NCBI GenBank assembly: GCA_017994935.1
Contig: JAGOJU010000002.1
Coordinates: forward strand, 62,001-126,000
DNA: 64,000 nt
Source: Opitutaceae bacterium
GTDB taxonomy: Bacteria > Verrucomicrobiota > Verrucomicrobiia > Opitutales > Opitutaceae
Direction: 5' to 3'
Positions within the stretch are counted from its first letter, which is position 1; the number at the start of each line of letters is the position of its first letter. This document shows positions 10,877-21,937 of this stretch, piece after piece. A model generated the notes under the pieces. The model was given only the letters and a program-made list of their open reading frames with translations, was not told the origin of the DNA and did no database searches. The translations under genes and the position numbers were made by a program.

Positions 10877-11314
10877 CTATTCAAGGCACAAGAGATCGAG
10901 TCCCGCCGAGCGATATTGCCGGTAGCCGCGATCGAACGTCACAAAGCGCATTTCAAGGTTAATTGCTAGAGCTGCGAGGTACGCGTCCATCCAGCGTTTT
11001 GGGGCAGGTGAGCCATATCGGGCAAGCTTCAGCCAACACGCTTCCACGCCATCGGGATCGTCGCGGATGAATCCTACGCGTATGTCTAGCCGCAGCTTTC
11101 GCCATACGTCGATCGCTTCCGAATTCGTCCTCACATCCTCTTTCATCAATGCCTCCAGCGTCAGCAATCGGAGGAAAGACTGCTGAGTCAAACGACAGAA
11201 ATAGACCGACTCTTCATCCGGCAACAAATCCATAAAGGCTACTGCCTTGGCGTGGTGAGGATGGCTCGCCAATGCCAGCGCAAGGAAAACATTGCTTTCA
11301 CAGAGATGCTTCAT
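10877..11314 (-). CDS. PIN-domain ribonuclease toxin (VapC-like)
   Basis: A 145-aa PIN-domain protein, the likely toxin of a type II pair. It shows the pattern LCESNVFLALALASHPHHAKAVAFM at the N-terminus, FCRLTQQSFLRLLT near residue 40, and MDAYLAALAINLEMRFVTFDRGY near residues 110-132. The last holds two of the acidic metal-binding residues. The first catalytic Asp of PIN domains appears replaced by Glu (CESN instead of LDVN-type), still acidic. Its start overlaps the antitoxin gene by 17 bp. VapC toxins cleave RNA, often tRNA. It sits beside the type I restriction locus, a common neighbourhood for such modules. Confidence 0.8.
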   Translation of the reverse strand: MKHLCESNVFLALALASHPHHAKAVAFMDLLPDEESVYFCRLTQQSFLRLLTLEALMKEDVRTNSEAIDVWRKLRLDIRVGFIRDDPDGVEACWLKLARYGSPAPKRWMDAYLAALAINLEMRFVTFDRGYRQYRSAGLDLLCLE

Positions 11315-11831: not shown

Positions 11832-13691
11832 ATGGCCCGTTCCCGCTCCGCCAAACCCGCCGACTCCACCGCCCATCTCGGATTCGAAGCAAAGCTCTGG
11901 CTCGCCGCCGACAAGCTTCGCAACAACATGGACGCGGCGGAATACAAGCACGTCGTCCTCGGCCTGATCTTCCTCAAATACATCTCCGACAGCTTCGAGG
12001 AGCACCGCGCCAAACTCCTCGCCGGCGAGGGCGACTACGCCGGGGCCAACCCCGAAGACCCGGACGAATACCGCGCTGAAAACGTCTTCTGGGTACCCGC
12101 CGACGCGCGCTGGTCCCACCTGCAGGCCAACGCCAAGCAGTCGGCCATCGGCAAGATCGTCGACGACGCCATGGTCGCCATCGAGCGAGACAACTCCCGT
12201 CTCAAGGGCGTCCTCCCGAAAGACTATGCGCGGCCCGCCTTGGACAAACACCGGCTCGGAGAATTGATCGACTTGATTGGCAGTATTGCACTCGTGCAAC
12301 CCTCACCCCAGCCCTCTCCCACGGGGAGAGGGAGCCAAGTTCCTGAGCCAGCACAACTCCCCTCTACCTCTGGGAGAGGGGCCGGGGGTGAGGGTTGTCA
12401 GGCAATAGGTCGTCAGGCATCCGATGACACCAACCGCACCCCCAACCACCGCAGCGTGGACCTGCTCGGACGCGTCTATGAGTATTTCCTGACAATGTTT
12501 GCTTCTGCCGAGGGCAAGAACGGCGGGCAGTTCTACACCCCGTCCTGCGTCGTGCGGCTGCTGGTCGAGATGCTCGCGCCCTACAAGGGCCGCATCTACG
12601 ACCCCGCCTGCGGCTCCGGCGGCATGTTCGTGCAGTCGGAAAAGTTCGTGGAAAGTCACGGCGGCAAGCTCGGCGACATCTCCGTCTATGGCCAGGAAAG
12701 CAACGCCACCACGCGCCGCCTCGCCATCATGAACCTCGCCATCCGCGGCATCGAGGCGGACTTCGGCCCCGAGCACGCCGACACCTTCCGCCGCGACCTC
12801 CATCCCGACCTTCGCGCCGACTACGTCCTCGCCAACCCGCCCTTCAACGACTCCGACTGGTTCCGCAAGGACGACGACGTGCGCTGGCAGTTCGGCGTCC
12901 CGCCCAAGGGCAATGCCAACTTCGCCTGGGTGCAGCACTTCATCCACCACCTCGCCCCGCACGGCATGGCCGGCTTCGTTCTCGCCAACGGCAGCATGTC
13001 TTCCAACCAGTCCGGCGAAGGCGAAATCAGAATGGCCCTCATCGAGGCCGACCTCGTTTCCTGTATGGTCGCCTTGCCGGGGCAACTGTTCTACTCCACG
13101 CAGATTCCGGTGTGTTTGTGGTTCCTTCGTCGCGACAAATCCGGGCGACCACCCTCACCCCAACCCTCTCCCAGTGGGAGAGGGAGGAGCGCAGCGGAGG
13201 GTGAGGGTAAACAGGGTTGCGACCGCCGGAAGCAAACCCTGTTTATGGATGCGCGGAAGATGGGAACATTGATTGATCGCGTTCATCGTGAACTGACAGA
13301 TGCGGACATCGCGAAGATTGTGGACACCTACCACGCATGGCAGGGCCACCCTCACCCGGCCTCCGGCCACCCTCTCCCAGTGGGAGAGGGACGGGGTGAG
13401 GGTGCCGCAGGCTTAGGGAGAAGGGCCGGGGATGAGGGAAACCCAGCCACGCTCTCGAAATACGAGGACGTGCCGGGGTTCTGTAAGTCCGCAACAACTC
13501 GGGACATCGCCAGTCATGGCTGGGTTTTAACGCCCGGCCGTTACGTCGGCGCCGAGGAGATCGAGGACGACGGCGAACCCTTCGAGGAAAAGATGCCGCG
13601 CCTCGTCGCCGAACTGCACGCCCAGTTCGCCGAGTCCGCGAAACTGGAGGCTGCGATTCGCGCCAACCTCAAAGGACTCGGATTCCAATGA
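11832..13691 (+). CDS. hsdM: Type I restriction-modification DNA methyltransferase, HsdM, with in-frame repeats
   Basis: A 619-aa N6-adenine methyltransferase subunit. The N-terminal HsdM domain ([34 protein letters not shown]) is followed by SAM-binding motif I ([10 protein letters not shown], near residue 256) and catalytic motif IV (NPPF, near residue 334). With HsdS it methylates the recognition site. It differs from ordinary HsdM by three low-complexity insertions encoded by palindromic repeats, near residues 156-188, 440-459 and 505-537. All are in frame and all fall where family members have surface loops. Without them the protein would be close to the usual 500-520 aa. The end overlaps an ATGA, as if hsdS once followed directly. 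Confidence 0.93.
12299..12395. repeat. In-frame palindromic repeat 1 in hsdM
   Basis: This block of about 97 bp opens with ACCCTCACCCC and closes with GGGGGTGAGGGT, an imperfect inverted terminal repeat. Inside are two CTCTCCC...GGGAGAGG palindromes in a head-to-head arrangement. It translates as [11 protein letters not shown]...[12 protein letters not shown] within HsdM. Confidence 0.85.
13151..13208. repeat. In-frame palindromic repeat 2 in hsdM (58 bp)
   Basis: A compact 58-bp copy with ends ACCCTCACCC and GGGTGAGGGT around the internal palindrome CCCTCTCCCAGTGGGAGAGG. It encodes [20 protein letters not shown] near-identical 58-bp copy lies in hsdR at 18412-18469. Confidence 0.88.
13348..13440. 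repeat. In-frame palindromic repeat 3 in hsdM
   Basis: A full copy spans 13348-13403 (ACCCTCACCC ... GGGTGAGGGT around a CCCTCTCCCAGTGGGAGAGGG palindrome). It is followed to about 13440 by a diverged half copy ending GGGGATGAGGG. It encodes [19 protein letters not shown] and then GRRAGDEG. Confidence 0.82.
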
Positions 13692-13697
13692 ACACGG

Positions 13698-13753
13698 CTC
13701 ACCCAACCCAAAGCGCAAAGCTCCTCTCCCCCTGGGAGAGGCTGGGTGAGGGT
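13698..13753. repeat. Palindromic repeat copy just after hsdM
   Basis: The same repeat family lies just past the hsdM stop codon: CTCACCCAACCC, then CTCTCCCCCTGGGAGAGG, then GGGTGAGGGT. It is the only clearly non-coding copy in the window. Confidence 0.75.
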
Positions 13754-13854
13754 TGCTGGCCTCAAGCCAGCATTGCCATCAAAGCAAATCTGAGGGGGCT
13801 GGGGCATGGAATGTAGCCGCCCCCCCTCTGCCCCAAAGGGGCGACATGAGATAG

Positions 13855-13914
13855 CCCAGGGCAACGCCCTGGGAATCCGCCCCGAAAACAATCATCAGCC
13901 CTGAAAGGGCGAAA
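13855..13914. repeat. REP-like palindromes upstream of the transposase
   Basis: Two palindromes precede the IS200-like transposase. The first is CCCAGGGCAACGCCCTGGG at 13855-13873 (motif A). The second is GCCCTGAAAGGGCGAAA at 13898-13914 (motif B), whose end is four bases before the start codon. Both motifs recur downstream of the gene. Confidence 0.85.
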
Positions 13915-13917
13915 CCC

Positions 13918-14370
13918 ATGCCGCAATCCCTTGCCCAAATTCTCGTGCATCTGGTCTTCTCCACGAAGAACCGTGAAGCTGTATTGGGCGATGACGCCCG
14001 CGACGAACTCCACGCCTACATTGGCGGGATTGTTGAAAATCAAAAGGGCGCTTTGCTCAAGGCCGGTTCTGTCGCCGATCACATCCACCTGTTAGTCGCC
14101 CACCCGCGCACCTGTGCACCGTCGGAGTTGGTTCAGGAAATCAAGACAGGCTCCTCCAAATGGCTGAAGACCAAGTCGGCGCGTTATGCGGATTTCCATT
14201 GGCAGGGCGGTTACGGGATTTTTTCCATCAGCCCCACCCATCGCCCGGCATTGGAGCAATACATCGGCAACCAGGACGAGCATCACCGCGTCGTGACGTT
14301 TCAGGAGGAATACCGGCGCTTGCTTGCGAAATACGGCATCCAATTCGATGAACGCTATGTGTGGGATTGA
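13918..14370 (+). CDS. IS200-like / REP-associated tyrosine transposase (RAYT)
   Basis: A 150-aa Y1-type HUH transposase. The metal-binding HUH motif is HIH at residues 55-57 (DHIHLLVA) and the candidate nucleophile is Tyr115 in LEQYIGNQDEHH. The C-terminal QEEYRRLLAKYGIQFDERYVWD is typical of the family. Members nick and join single-stranded DNA at hairpins. The gene is flanked by palindromes A and B, its likely substrates. It lies between hsdM and hsdS, separating two genes that normally abut, so it probably inserted there with its repeats. The ORF looks intact. Confidence 0.9.
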   Translation: MPQSLAQILVHLVFSTKNREAVLGDDARDELHAYIGGIVENQKGALLKAGSVADHIHLLVAHPRTCAPSELVQEIKTGSSKWLKTKSARYADFHWQGGYGIFSISPTHRPALEQYIGNQDEHHRVVTFQEEYRRLLAKYGIQFDERYVWD

Positions 14371-14374
14371 TCCA

Positions 14375-14900
14375 AGCCGCAACGCGGCGTCATGCGATAG
14401 CCCAGGGCAACGCCCTGGGAACGTGGCACCACGCCCCAGCCGCAACGCGGCGTCATGCGATAGCCCAGGGCAACGCCCTGGGAACGTGGCACCACGCCCC
14501 AGCCGCAACGCGGCGTCATGCGATAGCCCAGGGCAACGCCCTGGGTATGCGGCACCATTCTTTCCACAAGCCCTGAAGGGGCGGCGCCATCGGGGTTTCG
14601 CCCTTTCAGGGCTTGGGATGGTTTGGGCGATCGCACCCAGGGCGTTGCCCTGGGCTATCACAGCGTGCCGCGTCGCGGCACCCCACGGCCCCAATGGGGC
14701 CGAATGGGAAAGCCCAGGGCAACGCCCTGGGAACGCGGCACCACGCCCCAGCCGCAACGCAGCGTCATGCGATAGCCCAGGGCAACGCCCTGGGTGTGCG
14801 GCATTATTTCATCAAGCCCTGACGGGGCGGGACTATCGGGATTTCGCCCTTTCAGGGCTTGGGTTCTTTTCGACCTTTGGACCCAGGGTTGCACCCTGGG
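14375..14900. repeat. REP-like palindrome array between transposase and hsdS
   Basis: A non-coding stretch made almost entirely of repeats. Motif A cores occur at 14401, 14464, 14527, 14713 and 14776 in direct orientation and at 14636 and 14882 (a variant) inverted. The first three are in a tandem array of 63-bp units starting at 14375, 14438 and 14501. Two larger imperfect hairpins, at about 14568-14614 and 14814-14860, pair AAGCCCTGA(A/C)GGGGCG with CGCCCTTTCAGGGCTT (motif B). Mixed orientation and hairpin form match REP/BIME structures mobilised by RAYT transposases. Confidence 0.88.
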
Positions 14901-14945
14901 CTATCACAGCGCGCCCCTTTGGGGCTGAGGAAGGAGAGCTGGGTT

Positions 14946-16448
14946 ATGGCGGGTAGCGCAGTTGCCGAGACCAAGGCACTCCACGTTCCGGCTGCCTACG
15001 GTGAACTGCCTGACGGCTGGACTTGGTCACGTCTCGACGATGTCAGCGAAGGTGTTTTCGACTGCCCGCACTCGACACCGAAGCTCACCGACAGTGGCCC
15101 CTTTGTAGTTCGAACGCAGGACATCATCACCGGCGTTTTCCGCGCCGACCAAGCGGCCCGCGTCTCAGAAGAAACCTACGCGGAACGCATTGTTCGCGTT
15201 ACTCCAAGTCGCGGCGACCTTCTCTACAGCCGTGAAGGAACCTACTTCGGTATCGCCGCTGAAATTCCAGCAATGACTCGGGTCTGCCTCGGCCAACGCA
15301 TGGTTCTCATTCGGCCAGAAAAGCAACTGCTCGATTTCAGCTACCTTCGTCATTGGCTCAACTCGCCAATCATGACGGCTCATATTCATGGCTACCGTGA
15401 CGGCTCTGTTGCGGAGCGATTGAATCTGCCCACAATTCGTGCGCTCCCTGTTCTTCTCCCACCCCTCCCCACGCAAAAAGCCATTGCGGCGGTGCTGGGG
15501 GCGCTGGACGACAAGATCGAGTTGAACCGGCGGATGAACGCGACGCTGGAGGCGATGGCGCGGGCGCTGTTCCAGAGCTGGTTTATTGATTTTGATCCCG
15601 TCCGGCGCAACGCCGACCGGCCTCAAAATCAACCCTCACCCCAGCCCTCTCCCACGGGGAGAGGGAGTAAAGACCGCGAGAAAGCGGATCTCCCTTCTCC
15701 TTTTGGGAGAAGGGCCGGGGATGAGGGTGCCTTCGGCTTTCTCGACGGCCGCCCGGCATTCCCTCTCCCGCTGGGAGAGGGCCAGGGTGAGGGTGTCGCA
15801 GACTTGGCCGCCCTCTTCCCCGACTCCTTCCAAGACTCCGAACTCGGCCATATTCCGAAGGGGTGGCGAATCGGCTCCATCTACGAAATCACGGATGTAA
15901 TCTACGGAGCGCCGTTCGCCTCAAAGCAGTTCAACGCGAACCACGATGGAAAGCCGCTGATTCGCATTCGAGATTTGGCGGACGAAAGTCCCGGCGTTTG
16001 GACGCCAGAAGTTCATCCGAAGGGCTACACTGTCCAACCCGGCGACATCGTTGTCGGCATGGACGGCGAGTTTCGCGCCTACCTTTGGGGCGGCGTGCCC
16101 GCTTTGCTGAATCAACGGGTCTGCGTGTTCGCACCAAAGCCTGGCTTCTCAGCGGCATTTGTCCGCAACAGCATCATCGCGCCGCTGGCCGAGGTTGAGG
16201 CCACCGAAACGGCAACCACCGTGATTCACCTTGGGAAGAACGACATCGACCGCTTCAAAGCCGTGATTCCACCGCCCGAAATCCACACTGCTTTCGCCAA
16301 GCTCTGCCAGCCTTGGTATGACCAGATCGTCGCCAACAAACAGCAATCCCGCACCCTCGCCACCCTGCGCGACACGCTGCTGCCGAAGCTGCTGAGCGGG
16401 GAGTTGAGCGTGGCAGATTCGGTAAACCTCATCCAAACTGCCGACTGA
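14946..16448 (+). CDS. hsdS: Type I restriction-modification specificity subunit, HsdS, with in-frame repeat block
   Basis: A 500-aa DNA-recognition subunit. It has two target-recognition domains: the first opens with YGELPDGWTWSRLDDV, the second with ELGHIPKGWRIGSIYEI. Each is followed by a helical conserved region (LPTQKAIAAVLGALDDKIELNRRMNATLEAMARALFQSWFIDFDPVR; TLATLRDTLLPKLLSGELSV). The ATG at 14946 has AAGGAG nine bases upstream; the frame extends further left only through repeat DNA. A repeat-derived block, residues about 229-283, sits in the linker between the first helical region and the second TRD. The two TRDs together read a bipartite site that cannot be inferred here. Confidence 0.92.
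   Translation: MAGSAVAETKALHVPAAYGELPDGWTWSRLDDVSEGVFDCPHSTPKLTDSGPFVVRTQDIITGVFRADQAARVSEETYAERIVRVTPSRGDLLYSREGTYFGIAAEIPAMTRVCLGQRMVLIRPEKQLLDFSYLRHWLNSPIMTAHIHGYRDGSVAERLNLPTIRALPVLLPPLPTQKAIAAVLGALDDKIELNRRMNATLEAMARALFQSWFIDFDPVRRNADRPQNQPSPQPSPTGRGSKDREKADLPSPFGRRAGDEGAFGFLDGRPAFPLPLGEGQGEGVADLAALFPDSFQDSELGHIPKGWRIGSIYEITDVIYGAPFASKQFNANHDGKPLIRIRDLADESPGVWTPEVHPKGYTVQPGDIVVGMDGEFRAYLWGGVPALLNQRVCVFAPKPGFSAAFVRNSIIAPLAEVEATETATTVIHLGKNDIDRFKAVIPPPEIHTAFAKLCQPWYDQIVANKQQSRTLATLRDTLLPKLLSGELSVADSVNLIQTAD
15632..15794. repeat. In-frame composite repeat in hsdS
   Basis: Three palindromic units in series, opening ACCCTCACCCC and closing GGGTGAGGGT. They encode [23 protein letters not shown] and FPLPLGEGQGEG. 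The block of about 163 bp keeps the hsdS frame and lies in the inter-TRD linker. Confidence 0.85.
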
Positions 16449-16450
16449 CC

Positions 16451-17860
16451 ATGGCGACGACGATTCCACAGATTGATGCGCTCCTGAGCGTTCGCTCCGA
16501 GAACGAGCACTTGGAGTTCAAGGAGGCGACGAACAACTTCCATTTCGAGGAACTGGTGGACTACTGCGTGGCGCTGGCGAATGAGGGCGGCGGGCGGATG
16601 CTGCTGGGCATCACGGACAAGGTGCCGCGCCGCGTGGTGGGCACGAAGGCGTTCGAGGTGCCTGAACGAACGGTGGCAGGTATTTACGAGCGGCTGCATC
16701 TAAAGGTGACCTTTGACGAGGTGGCGCATCCGGCGGGCCGGGTGCTGGTGTTTCATGTGCCGTCGCGTCCAGTGGGACAGCCGGTGCATTACAAAGGCCG
16801 CTACCTGATGCGGGCGGGCGAGGAACTGGTGCCGATGACGCCGGACCAGCTCAAAAAAATCATGGCCGAGGGCGAGCCGGACTGGGCGTTGAAACCGGCC
16901 ATGACGGAATGTGACGGCGAGAAGGTGGTGCAGGTGCTGGACACGCAGAGCTACTTTGACCTCCTGCACCTGCCGTATCCCGCCACGCGGGAGGCGGTGC
17001 TGGAACGCTTCGCTAGCGAGCGGTTGATCGAGCGGAGCGGAGGTTCATGGACGATCACGAACCTGGGCGCGGTGCTGTTTGCCAAGAAACTGGAGAGCTT
17101 TGACCGGCTGTCCCGCAAAGCGCCTCGGGTGATCGTGTATGAAGGCACGAACAAGCTGAAGACGAAGCTGGATAAGCCGGGCACCAAGGGCTACGCGGTC
17201 GGCTTTCAGGGCTTGGTGGAATTCATCAACGGGCTGGTGCCATCGAATGAGGTGATCGAGCTGGCGCTGCGGCGGGAGGTGAAGATGTTCCCAGAGATCG
17301 CGGTGCGCGAGTTGGTGGCGAACGCGCTCATCCATCAGGACTTCACGGAGTCCGGCACCTCGGTGATGGTGGAGATTTACAGCGACCGGATGGAAATCTC
17401 GAATCCGGGCAAGCCCTTCATCTCGCCCGACCGGTTCATTGACGAATACCAGTCGCGCAATGAGCGGCTGGCGGACTTGATGCGGCGACTCGGCATCTGC
17501 GAAGAGAAAGGCAGCGGCGTGGACAAAGTGATTCAGGCGGCGGAGGCGTTTCAACTGCCCGCGCCGGATTTCCGGGTGGGCGAGAAGCGGACTTCGGTGC
17601 TGCTCTATGGGCACAAGGACTTCGAAGATATGGACCGGAATGATCGCATCCGTGCGACCTATCAGCACTGCTGCCTGCGCTATGTGATGAACGAGAAGAT
17701 GACGAATCAAAGCCTGCGGGAGAGGTTCCGTTTGTCCGAAAAGAAGACGGAATCCGCCTCCCGGGCGATTCGGGATGCCGTAGAGGCCGACAAAATCAAA
17801 CTGGCAGACCCGGAGCAGACGTCGCTCCGCTACCGCCACTACATTCCTTTCTGGGCCTGA
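16451..17860 (+). CDS. Schlafen/AlbA-type ATP-binding, DNA-binding protein
   Basis: A 469-aa protein starting 2 bp after the hsdS stop. The N-terminus (ENEHLEFKEATNNFHFEELVDYCVALANEGGGRMLLGITD) is the Schlafen AlbA_2 domain. The middle (EIAVRELVANALIHQDFTESGTSVMVEIYSDRMEISNPG, about residues 280-320) matches the GHKL-like ATPase part of proteins often labelled ATP-dependent DNA helicase RecG-like or transcriptional regulator. A winged-helix-like tail follows. Such genes are frequent companions in type I restriction operons. Their job is unproven; regulation or extra defence are the options. Unlike the hsd genes it carries none of the palindromic repeats. Confidence 0.85.
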   Translation: MATTIPQIDALLSVRSENEHLEFKEATNNFHFEELVDYCVALANEGGGRMLLGITDKVPRRVVGTKAFEVPERTVAGIYERLHLKVTFDEVAHPAGRVLVFHVPSRPVGQPVHYKGRYLMRAGEELVPMTPDQLKKIMAEGEPDWALKPAMTECDGEKVVQVLDTQSYFDLLHLPYPATREAVLERFASERLIERSGGSWTITNLGAVLFAKKLESFDRLSRKAPRVIVYEGTNKLKTKLDKPGTKGYAVGFQGLVEFINGLVPSNEVIELALRREVKMFPEIAVRELVANALIHQDFTESGTSVMVEIYSDRMEISNPGKPFISPDRFIDEYQSRNERLADLMRRLGICEEKGSGVDKVIQAAEAFQLPAPDFRVGEKRTSVLLYGHKDFEDMDRNDRIRATYQHCCLRYVMNEKMTNQSLRERFRLSEKKTESASRAIRDAVEADKIKLADPEQTSLRYRHYIPFWA

Positions 17861-17863
17861 TTT

Positions 17864-17949
17864 TCATTTAGACGCAAACCGCCGAACTATGCTTCAGCAC
17901 GCTCAATCCCTTGAAAACACGAGGTTTGGTCATTTAGACGCAAATCGCC
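17864..17949 (+). repeat. 20-bp direct repeat pair upstream of hsdR
   Basis: TCATTTAGACGCAAAYCGCC occurs at 17864-17883 and 17930-17949, differing at one base, with a 66-bp period. It starts just after the stop of the Schlafen-type gene, in the 210-bp gap before hsdR. It may be a regulator site or a duplication scar. Confidence 0.6.
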
Positions 17950-18070
17950 ACCCGCCCAAAAATGCTGAGGCCGCCCCTTGGGGGACGCCCTCGAAAGCTC
18001 GCTCAACACATGGTTGGCAAGGCACGGAAAACTTGCCTGCACTTCGCTCGACGTCAATTCCCTTGAGCTA

Positions 18071-21937
<3,867 letters not shown>

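Follow-up and report, generated by a model that had tools for sequence, protein, structure and literature searches.

Using a 64,000-nt stretch of one contig (hereafter, the window), we found that the space between hsdM and hsdS of a type I restriction operon is filled by a transposase gene, tnpA, and an ordered array of palindromes. This block is probably a REPtron-like mobile element, with a TnpA_Y1 transposase of the subclass 1.2 type, inverted palindromic ends and derived non-autonomous units, which resides as a guest at the hsdM/hsdS junction. The observations behind this reading are the anatomy of the array, its restriction to a single locus, the conserved spacing and co-variation of hairpin B, an intact tnpA under selection, the empty site of a congener and the duplicated gene ends that border guests.

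The operon and the palindrome array

The source is a 4.13-Mb MAG of 171 contigs that is 90% complete. Pfam searches of the window give the operon order hsdM, hsdS, AlbA_2/HATPase gene, hsdR, and HsdM, HsdS and HsdR are all present with their respective domains, which identifies a type I restriction-modification system; HsdM, for example, matches N6_Mtase with 332 bits and also HsdM_N. It should be noted that hsdS matches in the loci of relatives come from a translated query and represent DNA similarity only, so that statements on hsdS rest on open reading frames and Pfam. Just upstream of the operon, on the minus strand, a 145-aa ORF (10877-11314) looks, by eye, like a PIN-domain toxin.

The initial annotation had placed in a gap of about 1.25 kb an intact HUH transposase, eight B palindromes and several copies of another palindrome, and all of this is found in the window (Table 1). 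The gap from the hsdM stop at 13691 to the hsdS ATG at 14946 measures 1254 bp, and tnpA is full-length with its catalytic residues kept. Seven B palindromes are exact copies of CCCAGGGCnnnGCCCTGGG (at 13855, 14401, 14464, 14527, 14636, 14713 and 14776), the eighth, at 14882, has two compensating changes, and the C type (AGCCCTGAAAGGGCG) is present in five copies. Read from left to right, the array is A-B-C-tnpA, A-B, A-B, A-B-C-C'-B'-A', A-B, A-B-C-C'-B'-A', where A is GCCCCaaaGGGGC or GCCGCaacGCGGC and stands before every B, B is CCCAGGGCaacGCCCTGGG with a GATAG tag, and C is AGCCCTGaaAGGGCG. The outer arms (13825-13873 and 14882-14930) form a 49-nt inverted repeat that is 80% complementary, and the first MITE/REPIN-like unit has a DNA fold z of -12.7. 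At +499, the tnpA of the window has no C'-B'-A' right end of its own.

Every CCCAGGGC array palindrome of the ~4.1-Mb genome sits in this one 1.1-kb stretch, and tnpA is a single-copy gene in the genome. The initial annotation had proposed a search for the same palindromes at solo sites; a search of the rest of the 4.13-Mb assembly for B with at most two mismatches yielded three imperfect singles and no exact copies, compared to one match for the reversed-pattern control.

Table 1. Features of the operon and of the guest element in the window
Feature	Position	Strand	Basis
hsdM, type I methyltransferase subunit with in-frame P2 inserts	11832..13691	+	Pfam; purifying selection versus relatives
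hsdM tail copy 1, current hsdM stop	13620..13691	+	tail scan
hsdM tail copy 2 (...SIAIKANLRGLGHGM*), degenerate; preceded by a P2 copy at 13722-13742	13750..13818	+	double tail also in L101, L194
Whole guest element	13825..14930	.	outer 49-nt arms form an inverted repeat
Hairpin A1 (GCCCCAAAGGGGC)	13830..13842	+	palindrome mapping
Tag GATAG and hairpin B1 (CCCAGGGCAACGCCCTGGG), 63 nt 5' of tnpA	13850..13873	+	position, co-variation in relatives
Hairpin C1 (AGCCCTGAAAGGGCG), directly 5' of tnpA	13897..13911	+	palindrome mapping
tnpA, 150 aa, HUH/Y1 transposase, Y---Q--HH signature	13918..14370	+	PF01797, NF033573, conserved residues, dN/dS
A-B unit 1	14376..14419	+	palindrome mapping
A-B unit 2, 63-bp period	14439..14482	+	palindrome mapping
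MITE/REPIN-like unit 1, A-B-C-C'-B'-A'	14502..14679	.	inverted repeat, 87% complementary
A-B unit 3	14688..14731	+	palindrome mapping
MITE/REPIN-like unit 2, A-B-C-C'-B'-A', co-varied B' (CCCAGGGTTGCACCCTGGG)	14751..14925	.	palindrome mapping
Remnant of a further hsdM tail/original M-S overlap (TGAGG..GCTGGGTTATGGCGGGTAG)	14926..14956	+	alignment to L194 empty site
hsdS, specificity subunit with P2 inserts; ATG at 14946	14946..16448	+	Pfam Methylase_S, 62 bits
AlbA_2/HATPase_c_4 operon gene	16451..17860	+	Pfam
hsdR with P2 inserts and DUF559 domain within SWI2_SNF2 region	18071..21937	+	Pfam, alignment with relatives

The transposase

TnpA matches Y1_Tnp (PF01797) with 81 bits (cut-off 23) and NF033573 with 65 bits (cut-off 55); Pfam and NCBIfam group it with the IS200 TnpA, and the closest solved chains are annotated as transposases. 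The catalytic residues are intact, namely HIH (55-57), Y115, Q119, H122 and H123, in the arrangement Y115-IGN-Q119..H122-H123. Among 46 TnpA relatives, Q119, H122 and H123 are invariant and Y115 is 98% conserved, and the relatives also conserve the C-terminus (D144, E145, Y147, W149, D150). The dN/dS of tnpA, 0.04-0.12, is indicative of strong purifying selection.

The Y---Q--HH signature defines subclass 1.2 of TnpA_Y1, a low-copy group that is generally without terminal IS200 structures and occurs mostly in Cyanobacteria and Bacteroidetes, and class 2 TnpAREP (RAYT) is characterized by a Y---NP motif and a GTAG tag (Quentin et al. 2018, PMC6006769). The motif marks the protein of the window as a putative member of the little-known subclass 1.2 type. 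Its description as a REP-associated transposase in the initial annotation holds insofar as palindromes accompany TnpA, but the class 2 motif is absent. A classical RAYT is ruled out by this motif and by the tag, which is GATAG or GAAAG, not GTAG; a plain IS200 copy is ruled out by the inverted ends and the single-copy gene. A plasmid origin was also rejected, the only plasmid matches being below 60% identity.

Relatives of the element

Using tblastn, we collected 62 loci with tnpA relatives, the nearest at 91%; they come from Verrucomicrobiota, Planctomycetota, Chloroflexota and further groups. Where a close relative has an intact element, B mostly precedes the tnpA ATG by 63-64 nt, and an inverted B' follows about 499 nt after it; C and A keep their places as well, and the tag is GATAG or GAAAG. 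For the alignment of B ends, which were picked by position and tag, 20 distinct sequences were kept and three obvious tag-search mismatches were dropped. Hairpin B has an 8-bp stem in which 94% of the cells are paired and five of the eight pairs are changed on both sides. In 500 shuffles, the pairing, the count of two-sided changes and the covariation score all stayed below the observed values, and slid controls were far lower.

The B palindrome occurs in 1-83 copies in 25 of 26 genomes of relatives and is missing from one, and most of these genomes contain one close TnpA copy. Two genomes (G009 and G019) harbor inverted B pairs, 137-151 bp apart and away from tnpA, that are REPIN-like. A far larger expansion is seen in a single genome of Terriglobia (G023, locus L041), with 83 B copies and 18 TnpA matches.

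Within the hsd operon family, relatives of tnpA were found at nine loci, the window included, in at least four phyla. The gene is at the M/S junction in the window, L006 and L009, and beside hsdR in L004, L008, L010, L012, L013 and L023. The window and L121 (which is L009, from another genome) have the gene order M-tnpA-S-AlbA-R in common, and their right borders are alike. The dS values between the two are 0.99 for tnpA, 1.01 for hsdM, 0.83 for AlbA and 0.99 for hsdR; these similar values fit co-inheritance or joint transfer. The hsdR genes of L133, L004, L012 and L122 show less divergence than tnpA, suggesting that other insertions are independent and that co-inheritance does not apply throughout. 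Since the resolution of the tnpA tree is poor, the number of independent insertions is uncertain and a one-time origin of the M/S and S/R placements has no support in it. Because closer congeners are without the array, either the operon of the window is a recombinant or the relatives lost the array.

The hsdM/hsdS junction

The proposal that the array is an insertion splitting a once-overlapping hsdM/hsdS pair is upheld by two congeners, G033 (L194) and G034 (L101), in which the junction is free of the array; the latter genome, with the operon present, has neither the B palindrome nor a TnpA match, which shows the palindromes to be associated with the transposase. In simple sister operons (L100, L106 and L107), the hsdM tail, ending in GLGYGG*, and the start of hsdS share an overlap of TATGGCGGGTGA or TATGGCGGGTAG. 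The ATGA at 13688-13691, noted previously as a relic of the hsdS overlap, does exist, but it is ruled out as a former hsdS start, given that relatives have their overlap at TATGGCGGGTGA, where the hsdM tail ends. What remains of the old M-S overlap in the window is found at 13805-13818 and 14944-14956.

The empty site of L194 consists of tail 1, a P2 copy and tail 2 running into hsdS. The left flank in the window matches this site up to TATGG, and the right flank (14926-14956) repeats about 24 tail bases; tail copy 2 of the window, which is degenerate, was identified by eye. A scan for the tail peptide gave in total four copies in L101, four in L133 and two in L102, compared to none in a 151-kb shuffled control.

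Such gene ends border other guests as well. In L101 (4700-8760), hsdM tails border two four-helix-bundle genes, and in L133 they border two Abi-like genes and a tnpA element, with a tail on each side of the element; tail copies likewise surround guests in L102 and in the window. In L133 (4600-12700), hsdS tails and hsdR heads are also duplicated around TIR, DUF3800 and RhuM guests, and duplicated hsdR heads surround guests in L105 (900-6000), L193, L197 and L199. Across L133, L101, L105, L193, L197 and L199, the guests at hsd junctions include Abi-like, TIR, DUF3800, RhuM, DUF2290 and four-helix-bundle genes. These arrangements make the M/S junction a hot spot in this operon family, at which guests are placed between duplicated hsd gene ends, and the array is one guest among several and not a singular event.

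A guest gene within a type I operon is known from prrC in EcoprrI (reviewed in PMC3874165). The present case is similar in this respect and differs in that several unrelated guests are bordered by copies of hsdM, hsdS or hsdR ends. In the open-access literature, we found no precedent for hsdM/hsdS cassettes, for guests bordered by gene ends or for a combination of IS200 and hsd.

P2 palindromes and DUF559 inserts

Another palindrome, P2 (CCCTCTCCCnnnGGGAGAGGG), occurs in the source genome only within the operon (12312-19957, at most two mismatches), and its copies lie in frame within the hsdM, hsdS and hsdR reading frames, except for the copy at tail 2. By hand count, 25 other genomes contain 66 copies (at most one mismatch): 50 in hsdM, hsdS, hsdR or an operon junction, two in an MMPL/acyltransferase ORF, five in ORFs without a family and nine without a resolved location; these genomes were picked for having such operons or tnpA, and the counts are not an unbiased rate.

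In the hsdR of the window, P2 brackets a segment (19516-19957) that places DUF559 (~19613-19936) inside the SWI2_SNF2 region. The in-frame bracketing of DUF559 by P2 recurs at two sites of HsdR, site A (L122, L193, L163, L167 and L174) and site B (the window, L102, L193 and L169), and relatives show the same sites without an insert or with P2 alone. When 240 genomes were sampled evenly across the phylum, the 20 strongest DUF559 matches (L163-L182), the window included, comprised 10 that fall within hsdR or hsdM. Palindromes also lie near many of the free-standing DUF559 genes. A search of the open-access literature returned no paper connecting DUF559 with palindromes. Together, P2 and DUF559 may be an in-frame homing element, and this family looks more novel than the TnpA array.

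Discussion

With subclass 1.2, the element shares the HUH and Y---Q--HH motifs, the low copy number and a profile close to the IS200 TnpA, and differs from it in the mostly PVC membership, the conserved inverted palindromic ends and the MITE derivatives. The likeness to class 2 TnpAREP/REPtrons lies in the low- or single-copy HUH gene, the tagged palindromes in inverted flanking orientation, the inverted palindrome pairs and the non-autonomous copies. Beyond the Y motif, there are differences in the tag at the hairpin foot (GATAG/GAAAG here, GTAG/GTGG there) and in distribution, in that class 2 REPs are high-copy and dispersed whereas the palindromes here are confined to one locus. Because the tests of both motif and tag speak against RAYT membership, we regard the element as REPtron-like in its working, yet not a RAYT. 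IS200/IS605 (class 1.1) also encodes a Y1_Tnp HUH transposase, but its subterminal hairpins have the same orientation, unlike the inverted A-B-C ... C'-B'-A' found here. The units at 14502-14679 and 14751-14925 and the pairs in G009 and G019 resemble REPINs in being non-autonomous inverse palindrome pairs with a spacer. A Y1 transposase gene between terminal inverted repeats is also the plan of the TIRtron (Di Nocera et al. 2013, PMC3733652); in the present element, however, the inverted ends are three ordered hairpins, accompanied by tandem and MITE derivatives.

Under the guest-element explanation, TnpA would use the GATAG-tagged hairpins as sites for cutting and joining single-stranded DNA, and would have produced the A-B units as well as both MITE-like units. 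The block would have entered the junction via recombination inside one of the hsdM 3'-end copies. We infer this route because the block lies between hsdM-end copies, as do unrelated guests in sister operons; the shortness of the right-hand tail remnant, with only ~24 matching bases, counts against it. It is rather unlikely that TnpA instead put its own element straight into an intact hsdM/hsdS overlap, the similarity of the flanking tails being due to chance or a by-product. The ends of the element are well defined, TnpA is intact and under selection, and in many relatives the element stands between ordinary non-hsd genes, suggesting that it can insert anywhere. Nevertheless, unrelated guests at the same junction bear the same tail copies, and the element of L133 has a tail on both sides. 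IS200/IS605 and REP systems are not known to duplicate a target of ~20-70 bp, which also counts against direct transposition.

The array could be an inert, decaying relic without present activity or effect, given that solo copies are few, that drift is visible in tail 2 and in the last B palindrome and that the right end of tnpA is missing; the strong purifying selection on tnpA, its intact catalytic residues and the compensatory changes that maintain the palindrome stems make this improbable. We consider it quite improbable that the hairpins have become a regulatory device tuning hsdS relative to hsdM, an idea of the initial annotation, for example, by stabilizing hsdM mRNA or by cutting read-through. 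The array RNA has a very strong fold (-372.5 kcal/mol, z -12), and the array was retained in the window and L121 over a dS of ~1. However, a consensus scan of the hsdM-hsdS gap identified neither a T-run terminator nor a sigma-70-like promoter, the total number of terminator-like sites equals the shuffle mean, and both sister operons and closer relatives manage without the array. A chimeric MAG or a misassembled repeat would be conceivable in a repeat-rich region of a 171-contig assembly, and most of the genomes compared are MAGs in which repeat-rich junctions are prone to misassembly. This explanation is extremely improbable, since both flanks align with the congener L194, the gene order is repeated, with a similar border, at L121 in another genome, and the pattern recurs across several assemblies.

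With the element as a guest at the junction, hsdS would be translated from its own AAGGAG (14931-14936, 9 nt before the ATG), now that its start no longer overlaps the hsdM stop; a similar GGAGGAAGGAG stands at the same border in L121. Between the window and L121, omega is 0.19-0.25 for hsdM and hsdR, which is indicative of purifying selection. Given the separate AAGGAG of hsdS and the purifying selection on hsdM, hsdR and tnpA, the split appears to be tolerated by the operon, and a loss of operon function is unlikely on these sequence grounds; a quantitative effect, such as the lower hsdS expression and shifted M:S:R ratio suggested in the initial annotation, may exist.

If the guest-element explanation is correct, subclass 1.2, which has been described without clear ends, gains a candidate substrate, namely GATAG-tagged hairpins at fixed distances. 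We also put forward, with some doubt, a wider proposal for Verrucomicrobiota and their neighbors, in which type I operons may be platforms for junction cassettes with gene-end copies and for in-frame P2 palindromes that ferry a DUF559 (Vsr-like) nuclease to a few recurrent sites. If true, P2/DUF559 would be an in-frame homing element that does without splicing. It seems that restriction operons of this kind accumulate mobile passengers and yet keep working, and how they repeatedly take in guests while keeping frames, gene ends and function is a testable question. Should the cassette and in-frame routes be real, defence operons would also be vehicles for selfish or accessory DNA.
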